Positions 1 to 64,000 of a DNA stretch of 64,000 nt are shown here, in pieces. The notes beneath the pieces were generated by a model. It ran no database searches and was not told the origin of the DNA. It saw only the letters and a program-made list of their open reading frames with translations. This DNA is from Chaetoceros tenuissimus (lineage: Eukaryota; Bacillariophyta; Thalassiosirophyceae; Chaetocerotales; Chaetocerotaceae), in assembly GCA_021927905.1 (NCBI GenBank), contig BLLK01000064.1, forward strand, positions 1 to 64,000, written 5' to 3'. Within the stretch, counting starts at the first letter, position 1, and the number at the start of each line of letters is the position of its first letter. The position numbers were made by a program, and so were the translations under genes.

Positions 1-1090
1 CAGATATTCCGTCAGACGTACCGTCTGATCAACCATCTTCACTTCCGTCATCGATGCCATCAGATATTCCGTCAGACGTACCATCTGATCAACCATCCTC
101 ACTTCCGTCATCCATGCCATCAGATATTCCGTCAGACGTACCATCTGATCAACCATCTTCACTTCCGTCATCGATGCCATCAGATATTCCGTCAGACGTA
201 CCATCTGATCAACCATCTTCACTTCCGTCATCGATGCCATCAGATATTCCGTCAGACGTACCATCTGATCAACCATCTTCACTTCCGTCATCGATACCAT
301 CAGATATTCCGTCAGACGTACCATCTGATCAACCATCTTCACTTCCGTCATCGATGCCATCAGATATTCCGTCAGACGTACCATCTGATCAACCATCTTT
401 GCTTCCGTCATCGATGCCATCAGATATTCCGTCAGACGTACCATCTGATCAACCAAGTTCACTTCCGTCATCGATGCCATCAGATATTCCGTCAGACGTA
501 CCATCTGATCAACCAAGTTCACTTCCGTCATCGATGCCATCAGATATTCCGTCAGACGTACCATCAGATCAACCAAGTTCTGTTCCGTCATCGATGCCAT
601 CAGATATTCCGTCAGACGTACCATCAGATCAACCAAGTTCTGTTCCGTCATCGATGCCATCAGATATTCCGTCAGACGTACCATCTGATCAACCAAGTTC
701 TGCTCCGTCATCGATGCCATCAGATATTCCGTCAGACGTACCATCTGATCAACCAAGTTCTGTTCCGTCATCGATGCCATCAGATATTCCGTCAGACGTA
801 CCATCTGATCAACCAAGTTCTGTTCCGTCATCGATGCCATCAGATATTCCGTCAGACGTACCATCTGATCAACCAAGTTCTGTTCCGTCATCGATGCCAT
901 CAGATATTCCGTCAGACGTACCATCTGATCAACCATCTTCACTTCCGTCATCGATGCCATCAGATATTCCGTCAGACGTACCATCTGATCAACCAAGTTC
1001 TGTTCCGTCATCGATGCCATCAGATATTCCGTCAGACGTACCATCTGATCAACCAAGTTCTGTTCCGTCATCGATGCCATCAGATATTCC
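1..1090 (+). repeat. 60-bp coding minisatellite, 18 units
   Basis: The unit is exactly 60 bp and in register with base 1. Copies differ at few sites, mainly the codons for SS-L, SS-V or LL, so the array looks young or homogenised. Each unit codes 20 residues of PSD/PSS stalk. Confidence 0.95.
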
Positions 1091-3717
1091 TTCAATTTCC
1101 ACAGCTCCTTCCGTACATCCTTCAAGCTTGCCAAGTTTATTACCATCTCCACAACCATCATCATTACCAACTGTTTCTTTTTTACCAACTTTAACAGTAT
1201 TGGTTAATACTGAGTTAAGCCTTACTCTGATTGGTGTGTCTGAATTGACTATTGAATTAGAAGAAAAAATTGTAGAGGGTGTGAAACAATCATTTGGAAA
1301 TGCTGATGTAAATGTTACTGTTTCTGTCGTTCCAACTGGAACCAGATTACTTCTACTCTCAGATTCCAGAAATCTACAGGGTGATAGTTTGTTGCTTGCA
1401 GTTGAAATCGTGGGGAAAATTGCGGAAGAGGATGTTTCCAGTCCACAAAAACTTATTCAAATTTCAGACTCTGTCGAAAATGAAGCTAATAAACTTGAAA
1501 ATGTTTCAATTTCTGCAGATGTAGGTGTAGCACCAACAGCAAGACCTTCTTCTCTCCCCTCCTTGGAACCAAGCGAGGTACCATCATCTAAACCATCATT
1601 GATGCCATCAGATATTCCATCTGAAGTACCGTCTCAAACACCGTCAACGAATCCTAGTAGTAATCCATCATTGTCTATGATACCATCATATGTGCCGTCT
1701 TCGGAGCCATCTTCTTCTCCAACAGCAAGTGATCACCCATCAAACATTCCATCGGATACTCCTTCAGATAAACCATCTGATGTACCTTCAGACCAGCCAA
1801 GTTTGCTTCCGTCATCTATGCCGAGCAACCTTCCATCAGATATTCCATCTGATGTACCTTCAGACCAGCCAAGTTTGCTTCCGTCATCGATGCCTTCAGA
1901 CATTCCATCGGATATTCCTTCTGATATTCCATCGGATGTTCCATCTGACCAGCCAAGTTTGCTTCCGTCATCGATGCCTTCAGACATTCCATCGGATATT
2001 CCATCTGACCAGCCAAGTTTGCTTCCGTCATCGATGCCTTCAGACATTCCATCGGATATTCCATCAGATATTCCATCTGATTTAACTTCAGACCAGCCAA
2101 GTTTGCTTCCGTCATCGATGCCTTCAGACATTCCATCGGATATTCCATCAGATATTCCATCTGATGTACCTTCAGACCAGCCAAGTTTGCTTCCGTCATC
2201 GATGCCTTCAGACATTCCATCGGATATTCCATCGGATGTTCCATCTGACCAGCCAAGTTTGCTTCCGTCATCGATGCCTTCAGATATTCCGTCGGATGTT
2301 CCATCAGATATTCCATCGGATGTTCCATCTGACCAGCCAAGTTTGCTTCCGTCATCGATGCCTTCAGATATTCCGTCGGATAATTCATCGGATATTCCAT
2401 CTGACCAGCCAAGTTTGCTTCCGTCATCGATGCCTTCAGATATTCCGTCAGATATTCCATCGGATATTCCATCTGACCAGCCAAGTTTGCTTCCGTCATC
2501 GATGCCTTCAGATATTCCGTCGGATATTCCATCAGATATTCCATCGGATATTCCATCTGACCAGCCAAGTTTGCTTCCGTCATCGATGCCTTCAGATGTT
2601 CCGTCGGATATTCCATCAGATATTCCATCGGATGTACCTTCTGACCAGCCAAGTTTGCTTCCGTCATCGATGCCTTCAGATATTCCGTCGGATATTCCAT
2701 CAGATATTCCATCGGATGTTCCATCTGACCAGCCAAGTTTGCTTCCGTCATCGATGCCTTCAGATATTCCGTCGGATATTCCATCAGATATTCCATCGGA
2801 TGTTCCATCTGACCAGCCAAGTTTGCTTCCGTCATCGATGCCTTCAGATATTCCGTCCGGATATTCCATCTGACCAGCCAAGTTTGCTTCCGTCATCGAT
2901 GCCTTCAGATATTCCGTCAGATATTCCATCGGATATTCCATCTGACCAGCCAAGTTTGCTTCCGTCATCGATGCCTTCAGATATTCCGTCGGATATTCCA
3001 TCAGATATTCCATCGGATATTCCATCTGACCAGCCAAGTTTGCTTCCGTCATCGATGCCTTCAGATATTCCGTCGGATATTCCATCAGATATTCCATCTG
3101 ACCAGCCAAGTTTGCTTCCGTCATCGATGCCTTCAGATATTCCGTCGGATGTTCCATCTGACCAGCCAAGTTTGCTTCCATCAAGTTTCCCCTCTTTCGA
3201 GCCTTCGTTGTTACCTTCCTCTGAACCTTCTGTTCTTCCATCTTTACTGCCATCTTCTGAACCTTCTTTCCTCCCTAGTTGCTCGCAAATGCCATCTGCA
3301 CAGCCAACAAAATCTGGAAAGGCAGTTAAGAGTTTGAAGTCAAGCAAAAGTACACAGATTAATTGTGGTTCAATGGCACCTTCTGTTTCTTCATCCCCTA
3401 CTGTAGGTAAGAAGACGAAAGCTCCAAAAGTTACGAAAGCTCCGAAAGCTGAGAAGAAAGCAAAGCAAATGAAAAAAGTGTTTAAATCACGTACCCGTAC
3501 GATCGATTTCACAAAGACAAAGGCACCAAAAGAAACCAAAGCTCCAAAATTGAGAAATATTGTTGGGCGGACTAAAGCTCCTACCATAATTAAGAGCTCC
3601 GTTGGAACTAATGTTCCTGTTATTCCGTTAGATGAGTCCAAAGAAAGCAAAGATACTGCTGTGTCCATTTTTGGAAGATTGACAGCGAGATTTAGGAATC
3701 ATTTCCTCAGAGATTGA
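1..3717 (+). CDS. PSD-repeat surface/cell-wall protein with C-terminal lysine clusters (5' partial)
   Basis: The frame is open from base 3, so the 5' end lies outside the window. The protein has four parts. First come 18 exact 60-bp units (bases 1-1080) coding a 20-residue PSD/PSS repeat. Next is a non-repeat domain of about 115 residues (about 1177-1530). A second, less regular PSD array follows (about 1590-3180). The tail (3280-3717) is basic and rich in Ser/Lys, with TKAP repeats. In the tail, lysines recur every third residue: KSGKAVKSLKSSK at 3310-3348, eight lysines at 3409-3474 and four at 3520-3549. An extra C near 2857 shifts the frame, so the first frame stops at 2873, while the PSD reading continues in the next frame to the stop at 3717. 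Without that base the CDS is 1238 codons. The lysine pattern resembles silica-targeting pentalysine clusters of silaffins. A role in the cell wall is inference. Confidence 0.75.
1590..3180 (+). repeat. Second PSD coding array, variable unit
   Basis: The base unit is 12 bp (PSDI or PSDV). These units are grouped into longer blocks that all carry the same PSDQPSLLPSSMPSD segment with near-identical DNA. Block length varies from two to four PSD units, as expected from slippage and unequal exchange. Confidence 0.9.
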
Positions 3718-4220
3718 AATGTTTCTTAAGAAAAACAAAGTATTCACGGAGAGTTTAGAATCATTATATGTTCATTCTTCAAAATAAAATAAAAGTGTGT
3801 TGAATTTATGGTTTTTGTCTAGAAAAGGGGCGGTTATTCAACCAGTATACCGTTAATACGTCATTCGGATTCTCTTGTGTCTGTTTTTGTAGAAATAAAT
3901 TCAAAGCTACTCATCTCATGCATGACAGATCAACATATTTGAAACTTGTGCTTCTTTTCAATATCTTTATCTACCTCATTCATGACCAGAAATAACACAA
4001 CAATCAAGAAGAATACACTATGATTTAAAAAAAATTGTCTCGTCACGAACAACTCATGTAAAACTAATTTAGTTTTTATTTCTCAAGTCGTGCTTTCGGG
4101 ATTTTTTGGCGATTGATCCACCAACAACCTTTTCTCGGTTTCATGCGATGTTTTGTGTGTTTCCAATTTGGAGGAGACATAATCAAGTATTCATCGCTTT
4201 CAATAAAAGTCTAGAATAGG
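3718..4220. other. Intergenic, AT-rich
   Basis: Holds the 3' flank of the PSD gene and the promoter of the next gene. I see no gene, RNA or repeat in it. Confidence 0.6.
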
Positions 4221-6674
4221 ATGAGACTCAATTCATCTATATGCAGCATCGCTCTGCTTCTTACGGCAAAAGGCATTCAAGCAGAGTCAATCACAACTAC
4301 TGATGAATCCCGGGCAGCTTATGATTGTGAATTAAAGGTTAGTCAAGTACATCAAGTGTTTTTGTCTCTTCTTCCATCGCAGTTTCATCTAATTGTGAAA
4401 TCTACGTTTCATAGGCGAGTGTCAAATGTATCATTATTGATGATAGAGCTGAATTAGCATCTTTCAAAGGAATGGATTGTGATGTGTTTTCAAACGAGTA
4501 CAGAATAATTAAAGGAGATGACGATCTTTACAAAAATGGCAAAGTCAATCCACAAGGTCTGCCTTTTGTAAAGACTTCATGGATCTATAATTTGTGTAAT
4601 GGAGGAGATGAGGATGTACAATTTCAAGATTGGCTTGATACACATGGTGTCTTCTTTGCAAATAAAAAGACACTAGTCTACGATGAGAACAGCAATGAGT
4701 TTGGCAAAGGTGTTTTGAAAGCTGGATATTGTCAATCTGCAACTTATGACTCAGATTTGAATTCATTTAAACGTAAACATCGAACAGATGTTATTCTAAA
4801 AGCAAGATTGAATAGAAATAGGCAACTCAAATGTGATGCTAGAGCCTCAAAAAAGATTAGATTTCGTTATTCAGATGACTGTAAAGTTGAGGTGAGTAGA
4901 ATGCATGTCTTTCTTTGTCAGATCGCTGAAAATGTTAAAGATTCCACATGCTGACCTTGTGCAATATAAAGGCAAATACTGAATGTACTTTGCGTGGTAC
5001 AGATATTCCTTGCAACGAAAACATTGAATACAGAAGATATGGAAAATGTTCAGAAATCCCAGTCACATACAAATATGAAGTATGCAATGAAGAAAGTATT
5101 GCCATCACACCAGACAAAAAGAAGTCAAAGGCAAAACTTGACAAAGTTAATAAAGGAAAAGTGAATGCACCAATTGCAGCTGGACAGTGTTGGTCAAAGT
5201 TTGTAGATGATACCATCAATGACTGTGACAAAACTCCAATTCGTATTCGTAAGTGGCACACTTTCATCAATACTATCTTCACTCATTCACTCCTCACTAA
5301 AGATGTCGTCTCTAATGGCTTTAAATTTCTATAGAAATGAAATTTGATAGATTGAATGATCCTGAATGCTTCGCAAAGAATGTATCGTTCGTACAAGTTG
5401 CAAATCAGGCACCGTCTGCAGCACCATCTTCAAAACCAACTTTCAGTAGACATCCTTCAGCTGCTCCAACAATTTCTCATGCACCTACTTTGAGCCAACA
5501 TCCAACCGTTAGCCCTACTGCAAGTCCATCAAAACGACCAACTGCAATTCCATCAAAGTCACCATCTTCAAAACCAACTTCTTTGCCTTCTTCCAACCCT
5601 ACAAAATCTCAACATCCTTCTCAGTCACCTTCCAAATCAAGTGCACCAAGTTCTAGTCCAAGTGTAAGCCAGAAGCCTTCTCCGTCTCCAACAAAATTAC
5701 CAAGCTCTATGCCATCCAATAGTCTCGCTCCCTCTGCAGGACCATCAATTTCTCATGCTCCAAGTAATAGTATGGCACCATCTGAAAATCCATCTACTTG
5801 TGTAGACGATCCCACTTATTCCTTTAACGCTGATGGATTCAGTGGAGATTGTAATTCCTTCACTAACACAAATCTATGCGATACCTTTGATAAACCACAA
5901 TTCTATGTCAACGGAAAAGGTCCAAAGGAAGCATGTTGCATCTGTGAAGGTGGAAATCACATTGAAGCTCCTTCAGAAATGCCTTCTTCGTGTGAAGATT
6001 TACCTGGCTGGACAACAAACTTAATTGGATGTGACCAAGCAAGCGGATTCTGTAATAGTACCATCACTGACGCAAATTATGGTGCGACCTTTGGAGAAGC
6101 TTGCTGTGCATGTGGAGGAGGAAAACATGTGTTTTTTGCTCCATCTCCAGTTCCTTCTTCCATACCATCCTCTACACCTACTGACTGCGTAGACGACGTC
6201 AACTGGGAATCTTCAGGAATTGCCAACATCAAATGTACAGATATTGAAACTGATAATTCATTGGAATCTCTTTGCACAGATATTTCTTTTTCCAATACAG
6301 CTTTCAACGGAAAAACAGTTCGTGACGCTTGCTGCATATGTGGAGGAACTATCAATAGTTCTGTGAGTCCAACAAGCACACCTTCCACCATTCCATCAGC
6401 ATCCCCATCTACCTGTGAAAGTGTTCCAGGTTGGAAATTCGGCAAACTTGGTTGTGAAATTTTTGATAGTGCTCCAACTTTGTGTACTTCATCATCTGCA
6501 GTAGATGATGTATATGGTTACAAAGCAGAAGTTGCCTGTTGTGCTTGTGGAGGGGGGAAGTCATTTGCATTCTCTCCTTCCCAAGTTCCATCATCCATGC
6601 CGAGCAAGAGTAATGCACCATCCGAGAACCCTTCAAAAGCACCATCCAAGAGTCCTTCAAATCCTCCTGCTTAG
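4221..6674 (+). CDS. Secreted protein with PSS stalk and four 'CCxCGG' cysteine modules
   Basis: Four exons: 4221-4337, 4415-4891, 4972-5248, 5335-6674; phases agree at each junction and the product is 736 residues. It starts with a clear signal peptide (MRLNSSICSIALLLTAKGIQA). Two cysteine-bearing regions with no family I recognise are coded by exons 2 and 3. A Pro/Ser stalk follows (about 5400-5795). The C-terminus has four modules starting CVDD, CEDLPGW, CVDDVNW and CESVPGW and ending CCxC(E/G)GG, separated by short PS linkers. Such modules are common in diatom secreted proteins and probably form disulphide-bonded domains. Function is unknown; a wall or extracellular-matrix place is likely from the architecture. 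Confidence 0.85.
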
Positions 6675-30796: not shown

Positions 30797-31196
30797 GTTG
30801 ATTACTATTACTATTTACTTTATGGAAGCTTTCTTGGAAAGAAAAGTGTAAAGAACAAAAGATTCATTGGATCGGAGGAACGCGGAACAGTGGAAGCAAA
30901 ATTGCATCTTCAACAAAAAGACGAAGACAGACAAACGCACTTAGTTGTAATTTCTAGCCACCAGTAATATCATATTTGCTAGCTATATAACAATGACTGC
31001 TTGGTGTCACGTACAAGCAGAGAACACAAGAAGATCGTCTTTCGTCTTGGGAACCCGAACCCCTCTGAAAGGTGAGTGTAAGTTGAGTTAGTTCTATTGA
31101 TGATGCCTCTGCCATAAATTGATTGTCTTGCATTGATACACAGTGGAAGGAATGCAGACTACCATCTAGACCGTCTACATCTTTATATATTAAACG
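30797..31196. other. Bidirectional promoter region purU / PPK2
   Basis: A 400-bp gap between two divergent start codons, so both promoters must lie here. No named motif is supported. Confidence 0.5.
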
Positions 31197-33659
31197 ATGG
31201 AAAAGGATAGGCTCATTGAGCGAAGTGTCACGGAAAGACACATCAATTCTTCTACGAATCCTCGTCCCTATGGATCCATCAGTGATGAGGAAGATCCAAG
31301 CGCCAATACAAATGAATCTGCTCAAAGCAGTAGTCCAGTTCTAGATTATTCGTTTCTCTCCCGTCCTCCTTTCTATCCCAGAGATAGTCAAAGTCCAGGG
31401 ACCAATGTAACAAATGTGACGATTGACGACTTGTACAGAAATGATTACTCCAATAGATACCTAGTGCATGATTTGTTCCACAGAAAAGAAGCTGTACTAG
31501 AGAAAGAACAGCACCCTAAAACTATTCCTCACAAACCTCCATACAGAAGAGGAAAGCGTCATCGTAAAGCAAACTTTCGAAGATTGAATAATTTCAGACA
31601 TTGGTGGAAGTCTGCTCGTCTTTTGGTTCGTCTAGCAGGATGGGCTTGCTTTGCTTTTTTATATTATAATTGGGATAAACTGTTACCAAAGCTTGAAGCT
31701 AATACGGCAAAGAGTATTAAAAATGCGACAAAAGCCATGAAAGCTATGGGAAGAGGAGGCATGAATCGGCCATTTCTCAAGGGAGTGCAGCCATTTACCA
31801 GAACCATTCGTCTTTACATGGCTGTGAATCGTGGTGTGGAAGCAACTCCTGATAATCGTTTCTATGAAGTACTCATGGCCGAGGCTTGGGCTTTCATGGG
31901 TAATAGAAGTTTGCGTTGGTGGGCGAGACATGTTACTGATTGGAGTTGTAAATATGCAATCTTTCCATTTGCCATGACTATGATTGGTCCAGAAAATAAT
32001 GGATTGAAATGGCAAATCCTCATCATTTTTATGGGTTTTATTCGTGCCATTTTGCCATTTTCAAGTTCTTTTGTTGGAAGTCGTATCGGTCGACAGACTA
32101 CTTATGCTGCTTGGAATAGAATGAACTTTAGATGGAAGACAGTGCAATCTGTACAAGATTTTGTTGTCACTTCTGGAGCGTATACGGATACAGCAGAAGA
32201 TAAAGATTTGCTAGAATGTTGCAAAAATATTGCTACTGCTATTGGTCATGGGTTGGATAATGAAAAAGTCCGTAGCGATTTGGCGGAGATTGGCTTCAAA
32301 CTTTTCGGTACAGGATACGGTGGTTATTCTTTGTATAGAAAGCGTGAAAGTCAATCTGTTCTCTTTTTGCATTGTACTCCCTATGGACCAAGTATTTGTG
32401 ATGAATTACCGAGATATATTATTCTTGAACGAAAGAGAGTGGATGATATCATGTCCTACGATTCCAAAGGCTTTTGTACATCTGCTAGAATGGAGATTGA
32501 TGCAGCCGTGAAAGGGTTTACCTATAGCGGAGCCTTTTTCAATTTCCAAGAGTGGGCTGCTTTGAAATTCAGATATGATAGAGAAAAGGTGAATTATGAT
32601 ACAGCTTGCAAATTCATGGGATATAAATCCAATTCTGTATTTGCACTAGCCCAATTTACACCACCTACAGACCTTGCGAGTCTCAAGGGTTTCATCCGAA
32701 CAGGACGTTTCCCAAAGAAGAAGAAAAGAGATAATAGAAGATGGGCACAAGTCATGGGCCAAATGAATCATTTGACAAGAAAGCTTGTAGCTATGGATAG
32801 GGAAGGAGTTGCACCTCGTGGTGTTATCATTTACTTTGAAGGTTTGGATTGCGCTGGAAAGTCATCGACTGGAGGTTTGATCATGCGTGCTTTAGAAGAA
32901 GCTGGTTATGATATGAGTTCTGTCCAGTACAACAAACCTCCTACAGAAGAAGAAAAAAAGAAGCCTTGGATGTGGAGATTCAAACAGCCAGCAACTGCGA
33001 TCGAGGGCAAACCAAAAAAGAGTGCATTGGTTTGGGATCGCGGGCCGGCTGGAGATTTTGTCTATGGTGGTTTCAACAACTTACCTCCCGAAATGAAACA
33101 GAAACGATACATTGACTTCCATGAGTTCGAAGAAGATTGCTTGAACAATGGAATTCTTTTCTGCAAACTTCTCTTTGTTACATCTCGAGATGCTATTTCG
33201 AAATGCCTTGGAAAACGTCTGGCACATAAGGAGTTTGCAAGAGACCTTCACTCATGGTTGGACGCAAACAGTGTCTATCATAATAGAGAAGGTCTAGCTG
33301 AAATTGAACATCACATTGATCCTACCGATTTTGTCGCTCTGAATAAGTATGATACAAATCTCAAAATCTTTTACGACTTTGTTCTTCATACGGATCATGT
33401 AGGAAGACTCCATGAAGATACCCACGCCTATGCATGTGATTACTTACCTTGGCTCGTAATCAATACAAGTGAGAGGCACCTAGCTAGAATGCAAATCATG
33501 AGGTCATTTGAAAAGCAGTTAGATCTCTATGCAAGTAGTGCATTGGTTTGGGATCGCGGGCCGGCTGGAGATTTTGTCTATGGTGGTTTCAACAACTTAC
33601 CTCCCGAAATGAAACAGAAACGATACATTGACTTCCAGAGTTCGAAGAAGATTGCTTGA
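31197..33659 (+). CDS. PPK2-family polyphosphate kinase (frame interrupted by internal duplication)
   Basis: 820 residues as the frame stands. A Pro/Ser-rich head is followed by a basic stretch and a membrane span (LLVRLAGWACFAFLYYNW). A long region of unknown fold follows. The PPK2 kinase domain begins near residue 540, with Walker A FEGLDCAGKSST, the lid ALVWDRGPAGDFVYGG and later RLAHKEF. PPK2 enzymes transfer phosphate between polyphosphate and nucleotides. At 33537 the reading runs into a second copy of part of its own kinase domain, then shifts frame and stops at 33659. The natural C-terminus lies beyond, at 34029-34306. The membrane span suggests an organelle or vacuole membrane place, which is inference. 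Confidence 0.85.
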   Translation: MEKDRLIERSVTERHINSSTNPRPYGSISDEEDPSANTNESAQSSSPVLDYSFLSRPPFYPRDSQSPGTNVTNVTIDDLYRNDYSNRYLVHDLFHRKEAVLEKEQHPKTIPHKPPYRRGKRHRKANFRRLNNFRHWWKSARLLVRLAGWACFAFLYYNWDKLLPKLEANTAKSIKNATKAMKAMGRGGMNRPFLKGVQPFTRTIRLYMAVNRGVEATPDNRFYEVLMAEAWAFMGNRSLRWWARHVTDWSCKYAIFPFAMTMIGPENNGLKWQILIIFMGFIRAILPFSSSFVGSRIGRQTTYAAWNRMNFRWKTVQSVQDFVVTSGAYTDTAEDKDLLECCKNIATAIGHGLDNEKVRSDLAEIGFKLFGTGYGGYSLYRKRESQSVLFLHCTPYGPSICDELPRYIILERKRVDDIMSYDSKGFCTSARMEIDAAVKGFTYSGAFFNFQEWAALKFRYDREKVNYDTACKFMGYKSNSVFALAQFTPPTDLASLKGFIRTGRFPKKKKRDNRRWAQVMGQMNHLTRKLVAMDREGVAPRGVIIYFEGLDCAGKSSTGGLIMRALEEAGYDMSSVQYNKPPTEEEKKKPWMWRFKQPATAIEGKPKKSALVWDRGPAGDFVYGGFNNLPPEMKQKRYIDFHEFEEDCLNNGILFCKLLFVTSRDAISKCLGKRLAHKEFARDLHSWLDANSVYHNREGLAEIEHHIDPTDFVALNKYDTNLKIFYDFVLHTDHVGRLHEDTHAYACDYLPWLVINTSERHLARMQIMRSFEKQLDLYASSALVWDRGPAGDFVYGGFNNLPPEMKQKRYIDFQSSKKIA

Positions 33660-34028
33660 ACAATGGAATTCTTTTCTGCAAACTTCTCTTTGAATCTCGA
33701 GATGCCTATCTGGCACATAAGGAGTTTGCAAGAGACCTTCACTCATGGTTGGACGCAAACAGTGTCTATCATAATAGAGAAGGTCTAGCTGAAATTGAAC
33801 ATCACATTGATCCTACCGATTTTGTCGCTCTGAATAAGTATGATACAAATCTCAAAATCTTTTACGACTTTGTTCTTCATACGGATCATGTAGGAAGACT
33901 CCATGAAGATACCCACGCCTATGCATGTGATTACTTACCTTGGCTCGTAATCAATACAAGTGAGAGGCACCTAGCTAGAATGCAAATCATGAGGTCATTT
34001 GAAAAGCAGTTAGATCTCTATGCAAGTA
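33021..34028 (+). repeat. Tandem duplication inside PPK2 gene (516-bp offset)
   Basis: Bases 33021-33536 and 33537-34028 are tandem copies. The first hundred bases (AGTGCATTGGTTTGGG onward) are identical. The second copy lacks a T at about 33638 and has short losses around 33692-33709, for a net loss of 24 bp. Both copies end GCAAGTAGT. Confidence 0.93.
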
Positions 34029-34306
34029 GTATTCAGAAAAGAGCAAAGGTTCCAGAGATTCTACGTCCTGGAAGCCTATCCGCAATCAAGGAGGATGAAG
34101 ATTTTGAGCAGTTGTTGGACGAGCATAGAAGAAATCCACGCAAATATTCCTTGACTGAGAACAATGGTCGACTTGGATGCTGTAAGAGAGTCATCATTGT
34201 TTGTTTCGTTATGATTCTAATCATTATATCATACTTTCATCAGACTTGGAAAGTAGATTTCTGGGGTGGAGATGAAGATGCTGATGCTGGAGGTGGAGGT
34301 GATTAG
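33656..34306 (+). other. PPK2 3' end: second kinase copy plus C-terminal tail
   Basis: Continues the PPK2 kinase domain in another frame (NNGILFCKLLFESRD through DLYASS). It then adds a unique tail: an acidic region, a membrane span (VIIVCFVMILIIISYF) and an acidic/Gly end, with the stop at 34306. There is no ATG that fits at its head, so it is the detached 3' part of the same gene. Confidence 0.8.
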
Positions 34307-35889: not shown

Positions 35890-38800
35890 TTAGCAAACAC
35901 CACAGGTGACAGGGCACATATTTACAACTTCTTCACGAGGACAATACTTGAACTTTCTCTTGGCTCTTCTCTTTTTATTTTTGAGAATCCATTTACAGCT
36001 ACCAGTGTTTCCATTGTCAATGGTGAATGTACCACTCATGTCATCAACGCAAGGCTCTTCAATAAAAGGGGATTTAGTTGGTGCTTGAGAAGGGGATTTA
36101 GTTGGAGCCAAAGTCGGGGACTTTGTTGGAGACTTGGTGGGAGATGTTGTGATTGAGAAGCAGCGTTTCCACCTAGGATCGAACTTCGTCCCACTTGGGC
36201 AAATACAATCCAACTTATCATCAGAATGAATAAATGTATTCTCGCACTTGCATTGTGCTACAGTTTGCGAAATAACTTCACACTTTCCTCGACCACTACA
36301 AGAAACTCCATCGCATGGGCTTCGTGAAGCCTCTATTACAACTGGTACTGAAGGCTCCAAAGATGGAAAATCTGATGGAATATCCGACGGAACATCTGAA
36401 GGCATCGATGACGGAAGCAAACTTGGCTGGTCAGAAGGTACATCCGATGGAATATCTGATGGAATATCCGACGGAACATTTGAAGGCATCGATGACGGAA
36501 GCAAACTTGGCTGGTCAGAAGGTACATCCGATGGAATATCTGATGGAATATCCGACGGAACATCTGAAGGCATCGATGACGGGAGCAAACTTGGCTGAAG
36601 GCATCGATGAAGGTACATCCGATGGAATATCTGATGGAATATCCGACGGAACATCTGAAGGCATCGATGACGGAAGCAAACTTGGCTGGTCAGAAGGTGT
36701 ATCCGATGGAATATCTGATGGAATATCCGACGGAACATCTGAAGGCATCGATGACGGAAGCAAACTTGGCTGGTCAGAAGGTACATCCGATGGAATATCT
36801 GATGGAATATCCGACGGAACATCTGAAGGCATCGATGACGGAAGCAAACTTGGCTGGTCAGAAGGTGTATCCGATGGAATATCTGATGGAATATCCGACG
36901 GAATATCTGAAGGCATCGATGACGGGAGCAAACTTGGCTGGTCAGAAGGTACATCCGATGGAATATCTGATGGAATATCCGATGGAACATCTGAAGGCAT
37001 CGATGACGGGAGCAAACTTGGCTGGTCAGAAGGTACGTCCGATGGAATATCTGATGGAATATCCGACGGAACATCTGAAGGCATCGATGACGGGAGCAAA
37101 CTTGGCTGGTCAGGAAGGTATATCCGATGGAATATACATCCGATGGAATATCCGACGGAACATCTGAAGGCATCGATGACGGAGCAAACTTGGCTGGTCT
37201 GAAGGTGTATCCGATGGAATATCTGATGGAATATCCGACGGAATATCTGAAGGCATCGATGACGGAAGCAAACTTGGCTGGTCAGAAGGTACATCCGATG
37301 GAATATCTGATGGAATATCCGACGGAACATCTGAAGGCATCGATGACGGAAGCAAACTTTGGCTGGTCAGAAGTGTATCCGATGGAATATCTGATGGAAT
37401 ATCCGACGGAATATCTGAAGGCATCGATGACGGGAGCAAACTTGGCTGGTCAGAAGGTGTATCCGATGGAATATCTGATGGAATATCCGACGGAACATCT
37501 GAAGGCATCGATGACGGAAGCAAACTTGGCTGGTCTGAAGGTACATCCGATGGAATATCTGATGGAATATCCGACGGAACATCTGAAGGCATCGATGACG
37601 GAAGCAAACTTGGCTGGTCAGAAGGTACATCCGATGGAATATCTGATGGAATATCCGACGGAACATCTGAAGGCATCGATGACGGAAGCAAACTTGGCTG
37701 GTCAGAAGGTGTATCCGATGGAATATCTGATGGAATATCCGACGGAATATCTGAAGGCATCGATGACGGGAGCAAACTTGGCTGGTCAGAAGGTGTATCC
37801 GATGGAATATCTGATGGAATATCCGACGGAACATCTGAAGGCATCGATGACGGAAGCAAACTTGGCTGGTCTGAAGGTGTATCCGATGGAATATCTGATG
37901 GAATATCCGACGGAACATCTGAAGGCATCGATGACGGAAGCAAACTTGGCTGGTCAGAAGGTACATCCGATGGAATATCTGATGGAATATCCGACGGAAC
38001 ATCTGAAGGCATCGATGACGGAAGCAAACTTGGCTGGTCAGAAGGTGTATCCGATGGAATATCTGATGGAATATCCGACGGAATATCTGAAGGCATCGAT
38101 GACGGGAGCAAACTTGGCTGGTCTGAAGGTACATCCGACGGAATATCTGATGGAATATCCGATGGAATGTCTGAAGGCATCGATGACGGAAGCAAACTTG
38201 GCTGGTCTGAAGGTGTATCCGATGGAATTGAAGAAGGAAGTGAGCTTGGCTGAACTGAAGGGGATTGACTCGGCTGTAGAATTGATGATGATAAAAAGTA
38301 ATATGCGTTAGAATGATGACATGCAAATTAGAAATTGAAAATTTATTGTAATCATCAAATCATTATCCCACTTCTGAACTTACATTTTCGGTGTCAGGAC
38401 AGACTGTAGACATTAGAAATAGATGTCAAGTTAGAACAACTGTCTCATAGCAAAATTAATCATTTAAAAAGCAACAATCATTTCAATCAAGATCTGTAAT
38501 ACTTACCCACATAAGTCAAACAAGTCATTCCAGTGATGGGAGTTGCGGAGTGATAAATTGCATTTCGGGTTTCGGTACAAGGTGAATCATTCCAAAATCC
38601 AGTTGACGGAAAATTGAAATCTATACAATCCTCATTGCCATTGGAATCATTTGGCTGACCAGTGCCCCAGTTGGTATATGTTACGGACCCTCCCTCAAGA
38701 AAGACCCAATCACCTTCGGATGCGGAATCACTTCCTCCTACCCACACTTGATCAGAACTATTCAATTCAGTCAATCTATCATTTTGCTCAGGACAACGTA

Positions 38801-45434: not shown

Positions 45435-47364
45435 GTAATAGAACGCAAGATTCAAGTCCCAGAGCACTGAAAGAGGCTACAAGAGAAGATTTTTTCTCAT
45501 TGTGTTTGGTTGGGAAGGAAACCCTAAAGAAACCTAATTAAGCAGAACATTGTCATTCTTATTAATTTGTACGTACGATTTTGTCGTATTACAGGAAATG
45601 ACTTTATATTATCTATCAATTGAAAGATGAATGTCTCACCGAGATTTCGGAGAATCTCTTGATACGACTCACTAGACTTTTCCGAAGACAACTAAACTAT
45701 TTTGATTGTCTTTTGAGTTGACCTTACATTACTACTTCACAGGTTTTTGCATATTTACATTTGGTGAACAAAATCATATGGAGCTGCAGTAATACTGATA
45801 TAAGTTTGAAATATCATGCCCTGGGAAATGCAAGATGTTTCGCTTGTAAATTGTCGAGGAACAGAAAGAGTACGTACGTACGAAGGAAAGAAAGAATCAT
45901 TCAAATCAGAAAATGGCCATGTATGAGTATTATGTTGTTCAACCGAGTATTGAAAAATAGAAACACTTGTTTAATCAAAAATCAGAAAATTACTTCGGTC
46001 AGCTGGTTGAGACTAGATAGAAATATTCAAGGCAACAATATTTTTGAGTCGTTGATATTATTATAACTCCAAGCCTAAATATTACAGAATTGGATTTTTA
46101 GAAGTTATAGTTTGTACAACTAGCTACTAGTGTACCTATCTTCTTGTTCTTACAGCTACTAGGTATTGCTTATTGTTTATTACTACTACAAAGATTCTCG
46201 GCTCTTCTTCCTCTTGCTTTTGAGAACAACAAGATATTTTAGTAAATTTAGACTCTGCGTTTCTTTCTTCAAGGTTACATGATATACGAAGGTGTACAAT
46301 TCTCTTGAACTGCTCGTGACGTACATCTAATAGCTACTTCCTCGTCTTCTCCCATTGTTTTGTAGTAGTCTACATTTCATTTTTCTTTTTCTCGAATCTT
46401 TTTACAATTTAAATTGTTTATCTCGTAGACACAAGAAGCAGCCACAAGACTGAAAGAAGCAAACAGTCCGGTCCCTACCATTGCCCATTGCTTGTTCTCT
46501 TTCTTCCTATCATCCTTTCTACTATAACCAAAAAAACTAGCCCTAGCCATGCACAGAATCAAGATGATTGCAACAAGTTTCCGTATCTAATTTGTACCAT
46601 GCTCACTCTAGACCGACGATAAAATTAAAAAGCAAGGAACAAGGATATCATATTTCCCAGTTTCCATAATAGAGAGTACAGTATTACAACCAGCCACTGA
46701 GACTAGACTTTGTTACATCTTCTTCTGTCTTGTTCAACTCCAAAGGCTCATCACTACTCAAGAATTCTACAAGCTGCCTGTTACATTTCCCAAAAATCTC
46801 TATGAATACCGTGTCCATTTCTCTCATTGGCCTTTGAGTATGCTATTCGCTATTCGCTCAAACTCTAAAAAGTTGAATCACCCAGTCGTCATGGAGAAGG
46901 AAAGCGATTCATTATTTTCTACGGTTGTAGAATTCTCATGTACACAAGTTTGGTTTAAGACGTCTTTTTAGACGGTGCATCTCAATACACATCATGTTTT
47001 AATTCAAATCATTCAATAACACTGGAATAAATTTCAAATCATGTTTCAAGGAACTACCTCGTCACGTTTCTTGTGTGTATGGATGGTTTGGTTACTATAT
47101 GATGAGGGATGAGGAAATCATGCTCAGTGTCACTACTAGCAACAGCCACACTGCTTCATGCTATAAGAGCTTTGGAGTTCTTCAGTTGGTAAATCTTCGA
47201 TTGTTCTGTTTTGATCGGGATGAAGATACAAACTAACTATCAGTTCTAAAAGGTACTGCGTAGATTTTGGATATCATTTCATCCTGTCATGTCGTTTGCT
47301 GAAGTTTTGCTGAGCAATCTCCATGCAATCACACGAACGTACAAAAAAGGAAAGAGAAAGGAAA

Positions 47365-62311: not shown

Positions 62312-63967
62312 CTATTTTCTTGCGCAACAAAACCAATAAACACGTGGGACATCATATTCTTCATCAGCATCCTTGGAGATCTCAGCGAAACTAATACCAT
62401 CATGGAAAGGACCATAGAAGCTTGCAAACTCACTCATATCCGGATCATAGTAGTATCTAGCACATGCTGTACCAAACTCCTTCAAGTCCAATGATCCATC
62501 ACCATTGATATCACAAGTCTCGAATGCACTCTTGCCTTCTTCTTCTGTCACACCAAGAGGCTCAATCCAGCACCAAAACTCCTTCCAGCTTATTACACCA
62601 TCGCCATTGGCATCAACTACTTCCATGAGTTTCTTGTTGAACTCTGCACTGATCTCGACTACGGTATCAGGGTTGCTGTTGACAAAGTCTGCCATATGTT
62701 GGATCCAAGCTTCCTTAGTTACATCTTCACCAAAGTATGCTTGATGAGCGGATCTCCAAGCTTGTTCTAGGTCTGCAGTGTATTCAATGCCAGCGTTTTC
62801 TGCAGCCTTACGTCCCCAAGCCACAAAGTCTTGCTCTTCAACTTTGCCAACACCCCTGAAGTCCTTCATATTGAAGACACGGCTCCACTTCTTGCGCATG
62901 AAAGGTGTCACAGCAGCATTATAAGCACCATAGAAGCTTGCAAACTCACTCATATCCGGATCATAGTAGTATCTAGCACATGCTGTACCAAACTCCTTCA
63001 AGTCCAATGATCCATCACCATTGATATCACAAGTCTCGAATGCACTCTTGCCTTCTTCTTCTGTCACACCAAGAGGCTCAATCCAGCACCAAAACTCCTT
63101 CCAGCTTATTACACCATCGCCATTGGTATCAACTACTTCCATGAGTTTCTTGTTGAACTCTGCACTGATCTCGACTACGGTATCAGGGTTGCTGTTGACA
63201 AAGTCTGCCATATGTTGGATCCAAGCTTCCTTAGTTACATCTTCACCAAAGTATGCTTGATGAGCGGATCTCCAAGCTTGTTCTAGGTCTGCAGTGTATT
63301 CAATGCCAGCGTTTTCTGCAGCCTTACGTCCCCAAGCCACAAAGTCTTGCTCTTCAACTTTGCCAACACCCCTGAAGTCCTTCATATTGAAGACACGGCT
63401 CCACTTCTTGCGCATGAAAGGTGTCACAGCAGCATTATAAGCACCATAGAAGCTTGCAAACTCACTCATATCCGGATCATAGTAGTATCTAGCACATGCT
63501 GTACCAAACTCCTTCAAGTCCAATGATCCATCACCATTGATATCACAAGTCTCGAATGCACTCTTGCCTTCTTCTTCTGTCACACCAAGAGGCTCAATCC
63601 AGCACCAAAACTCCTTCCAGCTTATTACACCATCGCCATTGGCATCAACTACTTCCATGAGTTTCTTGTTGAACTCTGCACTGATCTCGACTACAGTGTC
63701 AGGGTTGCTGTTGACAAAGTCCGCCATATGTTGGATCCAAGCTTCCTTAGTTACATCTTCACCAAAGTATGCTTGATGAGCGGATCTCCAAGCTTGTTCT
63801 AGGTCTGCAGTGTTTTCAATGCCAGCGTTTTCTGCAGCCTTACGTCCCCAAGCCACAAAGTCTTGCTCTTCTACTTTGCCAACACCTCTGAAGTCCTTCA
63901 TATCGAAGACACGGCTCCACTTCTTGCGCATGAAGTCTGTTACATTGTCTTTTTTGAAAGAAAACAT
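62312..63967 (-). CDS. Three-unit EF-hand (photoprotein/sarcoplasmic-type) calcium-binding protein
   Basis: Single exon, 551 residues, complete (ATG at 63967, stop at 62312). It consists of three nearly identical units of 172 residues. Each unit starts MRKKWSRVF(D/N)MKDFRGVGKVEEQDF, which is a degenerate EF-hand. A second degenerate hand (YFGEDVTKEAWIQHM) follows, then two canonical loops, VD(A/T)NGDGVISWKEF and CDINGDGSLDLKEF. This four-hand plan is that of sarcoplasmic calcium-binding proteins, photoproteins and coelenterazine-binding proteins. No signal peptide. Calcium buffering or ligand binding is likely; luminescence is not claimed. Confidence 0.9.
   Translation of the reverse strand: MFSFKKDNVTDFMRKKWSRVFDMKDFRGVGKVEEQDFVAWGRKAAENAGIENTADLEQAWRSAHQAYFGEDVTKEAWIQHMADFVNSNPDTVVEISAEFNKKLMEVVDANGDGVISWKEFWCWIEPLGVTEEEGKSAFETCDINGDGSLDLKEFGTACARYYYDPDMSEFASFYGAYNAAVTPFMRKKWSRVFNMKDFRGVGKVEEQDFVAWGRKAAENAGIEYTADLEQAWRSAHQAYFGEDVTKEAWIQHMADFVNSNPDTVVEISAEFNKKLMEVVDTNGDGVISWKEFWCWIEPLGVTEEEGKSAFETCDINGDGSLDLKEFGTACARYYYDPDMSEFASFYGAYNAAVTPFMRKKWSRVFNMKDFRGVGKVEEQDFVAWGRKAAENAGIEYTADLEQAWRSAHQAYFGEDVTKEAWIQHMADFVNSNPDTVVEISAEFNKKLMEVVDANGDGVISWKEFWCWIEPLGVTEEEGKSAFETCDINGDGSLDLKEFGTACARYYYDPDMSEFASFYGPFHDGISFAEISKDADEEYDVPRVYWFCCARK
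62390..63935 (-). repeat. 516-bp coding tandem repeat, three units
   Basis: The same DNA recurs at a spacing of exactly 516 bp (for example AATCCAGCACCAAAACTCC at about 62562, 63078 and 63594), with only a few base changes between units. This suggests very recent duplication or gene conversion. Confidence 0.95.
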
Positions 63968-64000
63968 GATACTTTTATACTATGCTTTGCTTTTCACTCT

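Follow-up and report, generated by a model that had tools for sequence, protein, structure and literature searches.

A strict i+3 lysine register in the tail of a PSD-repeat gene from the diatom Chaetoceros tenuissimus

Introduction

The proteins closest to the one described here are the silaffins of diatoms (Sil1p of Cylindrotheca fusiformis and tpSil of Thalassiosira pseudonana) and other silica-associated proteins with lysine motifs. A pentalysine cluster is worded as five non-consecutive lysines within 12–14 residues (PMC5501833), and in tpSil3 lysine clusters plus phosphoserines are described as crucial (PMC4557024). The sequences RRIL and RRNL are missing from mature silaffin peptides, and RXL is perhaps a general processing-recognition motif of silica-associated precursors (PMC4557024), a general role that still awaits proof (PMC5647440). 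In T. pseudonana, the silaffin-like or KXXK proteins have a signal peptide, many of them with pentalysine clusters and a protease motif, and XPT/SX tetrapeptide repeats are present in 14 members, the overlap of these repeats with the pentalysine clusters being unstated in the available text (PMC5501833). Because of these 14 proteins, lysine motifs and Ser/Thr-Pro repeats in one protein are already a known kind of combination. Expression that depends on silicon or on the cell cycle counts as a further mark of the silaffin-like class. Lysine-enriched regions are also found in other frustule proteins: a 187-aa fragment of CinW2 was not mislocalised when two lysine-enriched regions were deleted or changed to arginine, and the same paper reports that lysine-enriched regions appear to influence targeting (PMC9650480).

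In C. tenuissimus, cryo-electron tomography of growing setae found no silica deposition vesicle; extracellular silicification of the setae beneath an organic coat was deduced, and the chemistry of the scaffold was asked for (PMC8324917). A silaffin isolated from Chaetoceros gracilis appears as an entry in the reference list of PMC4557024, and in the available text of the open-licence papers that we searched, no protein sequence of the kind described below is named for Chaetoceros.

Here we describe a C. tenuissimus gene with a lysine-rich tail in which lysine recurs at every third residue. A sequence-only reading of this DNA had suggested a silica-anchored wall protein with a protruding acidic stalk, and we compare the gene with its relatives in the genome and with published silica-associated proteins.

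Results

The window (the whole stretch of DNA analysed, 64 kb) spans positions 1 to 64,000 of contig C50, and the genome that we searched comprises 68 contigs and 41,027,912 bases. Base 1 of the window is base 1 of the contig, so the 5' end of the tail gene lies off the contig; we did not find its true 5' end among the genome's contigs. The features of the remaining part of the gene are listed in Table 1. The stalk is made of 60-bp (20-aa) units, SDIPSDVPSDQPSSLPSSMP and variants of it, and consists of 29% S, 22% P and 13% D. Its acidic character, already pointed out in the sequence-only reading, is clear from the count of 142 D+E against 10 K+R in 956 aa; by our reading, the SDIPSDVPSDQPSSLPSSMP unit has zero serines at S-x-x-D/E, which lends no support to the phosphorylation of the stalk that the sequence-only reading had thought probable.

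Table 1. Features of the lysine-tail gene, in positions of the window
Feature	Position	Strand	Details
Ser/Pro/Asp stalk	3..2870	+	frame 3, 956 aa including the middle domain; 5' end open
Globular middle domain	1164..1550	+	about 129 aa, between two stalk arrays
Two RXL motifs in the domain loop	1344..1376	+	RLL 1344-1352, RNL 1368-1376
Extra C	2857..2858	+	CCGTCCGG for CCGTCGG; breaks the stalk frame
Last PSD repeats and Ser/Glu/Pro linker	2858..3309	+	in the tail frame (ORF 2164..3717, frame 1)
Lysine cluster 1, KSGKAVKSLKSSK	3310..3348	+	five i+3 lysines; codons 3310, 3319, 3328, 3337, 3346
Lysine cluster 2, KKTKAPKVTKAPKAEKKAKQMK	3409..3474	+	eight i+3 lysines and off-register ones; register codons from 3409, every 9 bases, to 3472
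Lysine cluster 3, KAPKETKAPK	3520..3549	+	four i+3 lysines; codons 3520, 3529, 3538, 3547
Protein end	3550..3717	+	stop codon 3715-3717; terminus ...FLRD (C11 sister ...LLRDV)

The stalk frame and the tail frame are one base apart owing to the extra C, after which frame 3 reaches a stop codon at 2871-2873. Frame 1 holds about 108 codons of PSD repeat, then the Ser/Glu/Pro linker and then the tail. The lysine tail had been placed at the end of a PSD-repeat protein, and this stands for the roughly 108 PSD codons in the tail's own frame and falls for the whole stalk, which is out of frame as assembled. The extra C is either a mistake of the assembly or a genuine lesion. The published C. tenuissimus assembly was built from Nanopore and Illumina reads (PMC8613185), and from this origin assembly errors inside repeat arrays are plausible.

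When 700 bases of the window's PSD stretch were searched against the genome, we found at least 162 matches, some of them overlapping, over many contigs. These matches lie on C44, C11, C46, C34, C4, C7, C18, C54 and others, with identities up to 98%, a pattern that suggests ongoing homogenisation of PSD arrays. Contig C4 ends within a repeat array, with 98.9% identity between its last 1,566 bases and C11:47299-48876. The high identity between PSD arrays on different contigs would explain why contigs end inside arrays (the start of C50, the end of C4). The window itself holds another PSD-repeat gene on the minus strand (35890-38359), which has several frame changes inside its array and ends in EGF-like (by our reading) and Cys-rich modules with TKSP repeats.

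The tail has 135 aa, of which 26 are lysines, and its charge is opposite to that of the stalk (34 K+R against 8 D+E). The runs of five, eight and four lysines at strict i+3 spacing that the sequence-only reading had noticed are confirmed (Table 1). Counting K-K pairs by distance gives 16 at i+3, as against 3 at each of the steps 1, 2, 4, 5 and 7; the 13 pairs at step 6 arise because of the step-3 register. In 200,000 shuffles of the tail with composition kept, 16 i+3 pairs were reached in 0, a run of 8 in 12, and 17 lysines in runs of at least 4 in 0. Scanning all six frames of the window, we found just two i+3 lysine runs of at least 5, both of them in the tail. Eight such runs were found in 236,767 bases (open frames of at least 100 residues, noise frames included, amounting to 94,347 residues), a sample that was partly picked by similarity and is no unbiased background for i+3 runs; seven of the eight are in lysine/PSD-type proteins and one is in an ORF at C50:72756.

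The middle domain belongs to a family with at least 15 loci in the genome at E ≤ 0.001 (the window's included) and 24 matches up to E 1. In Pfam, the window's domain had no match over the cut-off (the best was DUF6414, with 17.4 bits against 25), and the PT repeat in the domain's flanks scored 22.8 bits against a cut-off of 26.2. PDB sequences gave no convincing relative of the domain (best E 0.32), and AlphaFold2, run on it as a single sequence, returned a mean pLDDT of 40, too low for the model to be used. We had taken its RXL loop to correspond to the cleavage loop of SEA domains; a SEA-like order of strands and helices is unsupported by the Pfam or PDB searches and is not claimed here.

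The RXL protease motif of silaffin-like proteins is present in the window's domain as RLL and RNL, and RNL is the family's conserved column pair. In an alignment of 12 rows, which are 12 of the 15 loci at E ≤ 0.001 (C18, C48:14675 and C41, which is partial, were left out), the mean column identity is 45%, and the R and the L of R-x-L are present in at least 90% of rows. R-x-L is also present in 18 of 18 hand-cut domain loops, a set that includes Cys-bearing versions, contains the near-identical C11/C44 pair and leaves out C41 and C5; RRNL and RRIL are among these loops. R-x-L being a short motif, its conservation by column carries more weight than its bare presence. Cys-bearing versions of the domain, with Cys pairs ahead of the RXL loop, were seen at C11:48114-48620, C48:13091-13579 and C4:29457-29963, and C48 has two Cys-bearing domains downstream of a lysine-rich start.

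Two genes found through the middle domain, and not through their lysines, have starts that resemble signal peptides, according to a plain check of hydropathy and of small residues at the cleavage site rather than to SignalP. The C14 gene (C14:475875-476729, minus strand) is one open frame of 279 aa from Met, in which a signal-peptide-like start is followed by PS repeats, the middle domain and, at the very end, KAMKASKVPKTNKVSKMPKAS; this C-terminal tail has seven lysines at i+3. In the C48 gene (C48:14519-15886, minus strand), a signal-peptide-like start is followed by i+3 runs of 5 and 6 lysines with KSPK and KAPK wording, then by the domain in its Cys version and by a PS stalk; past an apparent exon end (PSG) come a further domain and a PSD array. 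A check of the 5' end for a signal peptide had been proposed with the sequence-only reading, and at the family level it is answered in part by C14 and C48, the start of the window's own gene lying off the contig. Secretion of the window gene's product would be in keeping with these starts.

Contigs C11 and C44, which are about 98% identical here, have a signal-peptide-like start and a KSP/KAP-rich lysine block, in which the longest strict i+3 run is 4 in the two pieces measured. This start is linked to PSD repeats via apparent phase-1 introns, in repeated exon-intron units. Small repeat exons (PSG|D) precede the long array at C11:50100-51120 (two exons) and C44:1152600-1153870 (three exons), and in such a predicted layout the stalk can grow in length by whole exons. 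On C44, the array after the lysine-rich secreted start leads to Cys-rich modules, and we found no lysine tail downstream of that start in the stretch fetched. Among the 26 loci scanned with flanks of up to 1.5 kb, which are overlapping sets of 12, 13 and 1 and so represent fewer distinct genes, i+3 runs of at least 5 occur in two distinct genes only, and most visible family members are without one. In viral contigs, 39 stretches matched the pattern of the tail and 0 were confirmed as relatives.

These starts also bear on the idea that the tail belongs to an intracellular, nucleic-acid-binding protein like histone H1. The KAPK and KKAK wording of the tail presumably resembles that of linker-histone tails, which is what speaks for such a protein; however, the tail follows PSD/PT repeats (the Pfam PT repeat being below cut-off), and the relatives with similar clusters have signal-peptide-like starts. 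We consider a histone-like protein highly improbable.

The sole other close copy of the tail that we found in the genome is on C11, on the minus strand in a frame that ends at 46704, with KSGKSRKNLKGSK and KRTKAPKVSKAPKAEKKAKNMK in matching places. Over 92 aligned codons, the window and C11 tails differ with dS 0.41 and dN 0.12 (dN/dS 0.29). Because a dS of 0.41 stands against a heterozygosity of 1.56% in C. tenuissimus (PMC8613185), we infer that the two tails are paralogues, not alleles. We found that 16 of the 17 register lysines are shared with C11 (5 of 5 in cluster 1, 8 of 8 in cluster 2 and 3 of 4 in cluster 3), two of them via a synonymous change, as compared to 18 of the 28 remaining in-cluster residues (Fisher p 0.03) and 2 of the 4 off-register lysines within the stretch of tail that was compared. 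This conservation agrees in direction with selection on the register, in a test of modest size that rests on one pair of tails, paralogues in the same genome.

In the C11 sister, domain, stalk and tail are in one 996-codon frame, of which the first hundred or so codons are garbled, and the domain in this frame is of the Cys-bearing type, different from the window's domain. The C11 frames are garbled at about C11:49327-49691, and C11:50069-69767 matches C44 in three blocks (98.1, 99.1 and 98.6%); C11 may be an assembly chimera. A single gene uniting the secreted start on C11 with the sister tail is not claimed here, given the garbled frames between them and the Cys-rich modules on C44.

The same observations weigh on the explanation that the register is a by-product of an expanded 9-bp DNA repeat and that the gene is broken, its tail decaying or untranslated. 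Inside cluster 2, a degenerate 9-bp tandem repeat (3415-3450) has four copies with 74% matches, the stalk frame breaks at the extra C, and longer arrays of this gene family abound in the genome, all of which would fit a repeat origin. In contrast, clusters 1 and 3 are outside the 9-bp array, the register is kept at a synonymous divergence as high as that of the pair and with dN/dS well below 1, the C11 sister has its Cys-type domain, stalk and tail in one frame (start garbled), and the C14 gene carries a separate seven-lysine register. We therefore regard a repeat by-product as improbable.

Just past the tail gene, window 3824-5091 matches C11:45195-46466, and about 1.1 kb of this (3900-4999) is without mismatch and has 7 gap columns. 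The mismatch-free part extends into the next gene, and its edges with diverged sequence are sharp; it is either a recent gene conversion or an assembly copy. That next gene (4221-6674) has a signal-peptide-like start, a PS/PT-rich stretch and Cys-rich modules of the CVDDPTYS...CCICEGG type, and encodes a second stalk protein, probably a secreted one.

Elsewhere in the window, an ORF within 31194-34306, which we take to resemble polyphosphate kinase 2, contains part of its C-terminal half (SALVWDRGPAGDFVYGGFNN...) more than once, and its end turns up again in a second ORF; this is either a partial tandem duplication or an assembly error. At 62312-63979 on the minus strand, an ORF has three near-identical tandem units of about 180 residues (FMRKKWSRVF...ASFYGAYN), which by our reading are EF-hand-like.

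The clusters had been called silaffin-like pentalysine clusters. Clusters 1 and 2 fit the wording of five lysines in 12–14 residues, and cluster 3 does not. KXXK with X = S/G occurs in cluster 1 only, as KSGK and KSSK with five residues (AVKSL) between them, and each KXXK of clusters 2 and 3 has some other residue at one or both X positions. Next to the clustered lysines there are four serines in cluster 1 and none in cluster 2. In the eight published lysine-enriched regions that we measured, the longest i+3 runs are 2, 2, 2, 2, 3, 2, 4 and 6 (PMC9650480); strict i+3 spacing does not define a pentalysine cluster.

This wording is relevant to a further alternative, in which the polycationic tail would fasten the protein to acidic polysaccharide or to sister PSD stalks, the protein working as an electrostatic cross-linker with a basic tail and an acidic stalk in mucilage or an organic coat, with no direct contact to silica. 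The opposite charges of stalk and tail would suit such a cross-linker, as would the spacers of cluster 2, which are mainly Ala, Pro, Thr and Val and not Ser/Gly, and another diatom cell-wall protein, AC3362, which emerged from a search for candidate adhesion proteins, is reported to have a Pro/Lys-rich region. On the other hand, cluster 1 (KSGK..KSSK) is near the Ser/Gly KXXK wording of silaffins, and the RXL loop argues for a place among the silica-associated proteins. An anchor of this kind is possible and, in our view, rather unlikely.

Discussion

On balance, we lean towards a large, secreted, silaffin-like wall protein that is built of repeats and has this tail at its C-terminal end, and the original interpretation of a silica-anchored wall protein with an acidic stalk is partly supported. 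Such a protein would enter the secretory path through a signal peptide and might be cut at the RXL motifs that lie in its middle-domain loop or loops. Its polycationic tail would attach it to silica or to a silica-forming organic matrix, and the long acidic Ser/Pro/Asp stalk would serve as a spacer or matrix filler.

The strict step of three may also find a reason in the shape of the chain. Prolines disfavour a long alpha helix, and a polyproline-II chain has three residues per turn. With prolines between them, the register lysines would all point to the same face of an extended polyproline-II-like chain, which would account for the strict step, for which mere lysine richness gives no reason. 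Silicate, phosphate or polyanions could bind along this cationic face, or lysine-modifying enzymes could use it as a track. Silica targeting by the tail is predicted as likely and no firmer than that, because known lysine-enriched regions need no i+3 step and the CinW2 fragment kept its location.

For the setae of C. tenuissimus, a more far-reaching proposal would be that proteins with an RXL domain, a PSD stalk and i+3 lysines form the secreted scaffold or coat for vesicle-free silica, with the register as a polyproline-II strip for templating. We give this proposal a slim chance. If the scaffold reading were true, the register would follow a targeting grammar of its own, different from that of the serine-lysine clusters in vesicle-borne silaffins. 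Whether for valves or for setae, a gene family with export-signal-like starts, RXL and silaffin-type lysine clusters offers concrete candidates, and the natural pair of tails, in which the register is kept and the spacers have changed, could separate spacing from mere lysine content in silica targeting.

The combination of lysines and repeats being already known, what appears to be new here is the RXL-bearing domain family together with the long strict i+3 register, neither of which we found in the available text of the open-licence literature. Compared with the silaffins Sil1p and tpSil, the likeness consists of the KXXK-register lysines, RXL, and the RRIL and RRNL of the family. In contrast to silaffins, the C. 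tenuissimus protein combines a conserved globular domain with a long, acidic PSD stalk, and its tail has a longer strict i+3 run (8), with mainly Ala/Pro/Thr/Val in cluster 2 in place of Ser/Gly. We do not file it as a silaffin proper, a name that goes with isolation from biosilica, lysines that are methylated or alkylated with polyamines, phosphorylated serines and precipitation of silica in vitro.

With the silaffin-like or KXXK proteins of T. pseudonana, the gene shares pentalysine clusters and the protease motif, and signal-peptide-like starts are seen in its relatives. The KXXK screen in that species used X = Ser or Gly, and the available text on the set makes no mention of an RXL-bearing middle domain or of a 20-aa PSD unit (PMC5501833). 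The cingulins, Tp5357 and Tp12162 are frustule proteins that likewise have lysine-enriched regions; that of Tp5357 contains an i+3 run of 6, RXL is present in both Tp5357 and Tp12162, and a PSD stalk is not described for any of them in the text available (PMC9650480). The cingulins differ from the window protein in that they carry Trp/Tyr-rich regions (PMC4557024).
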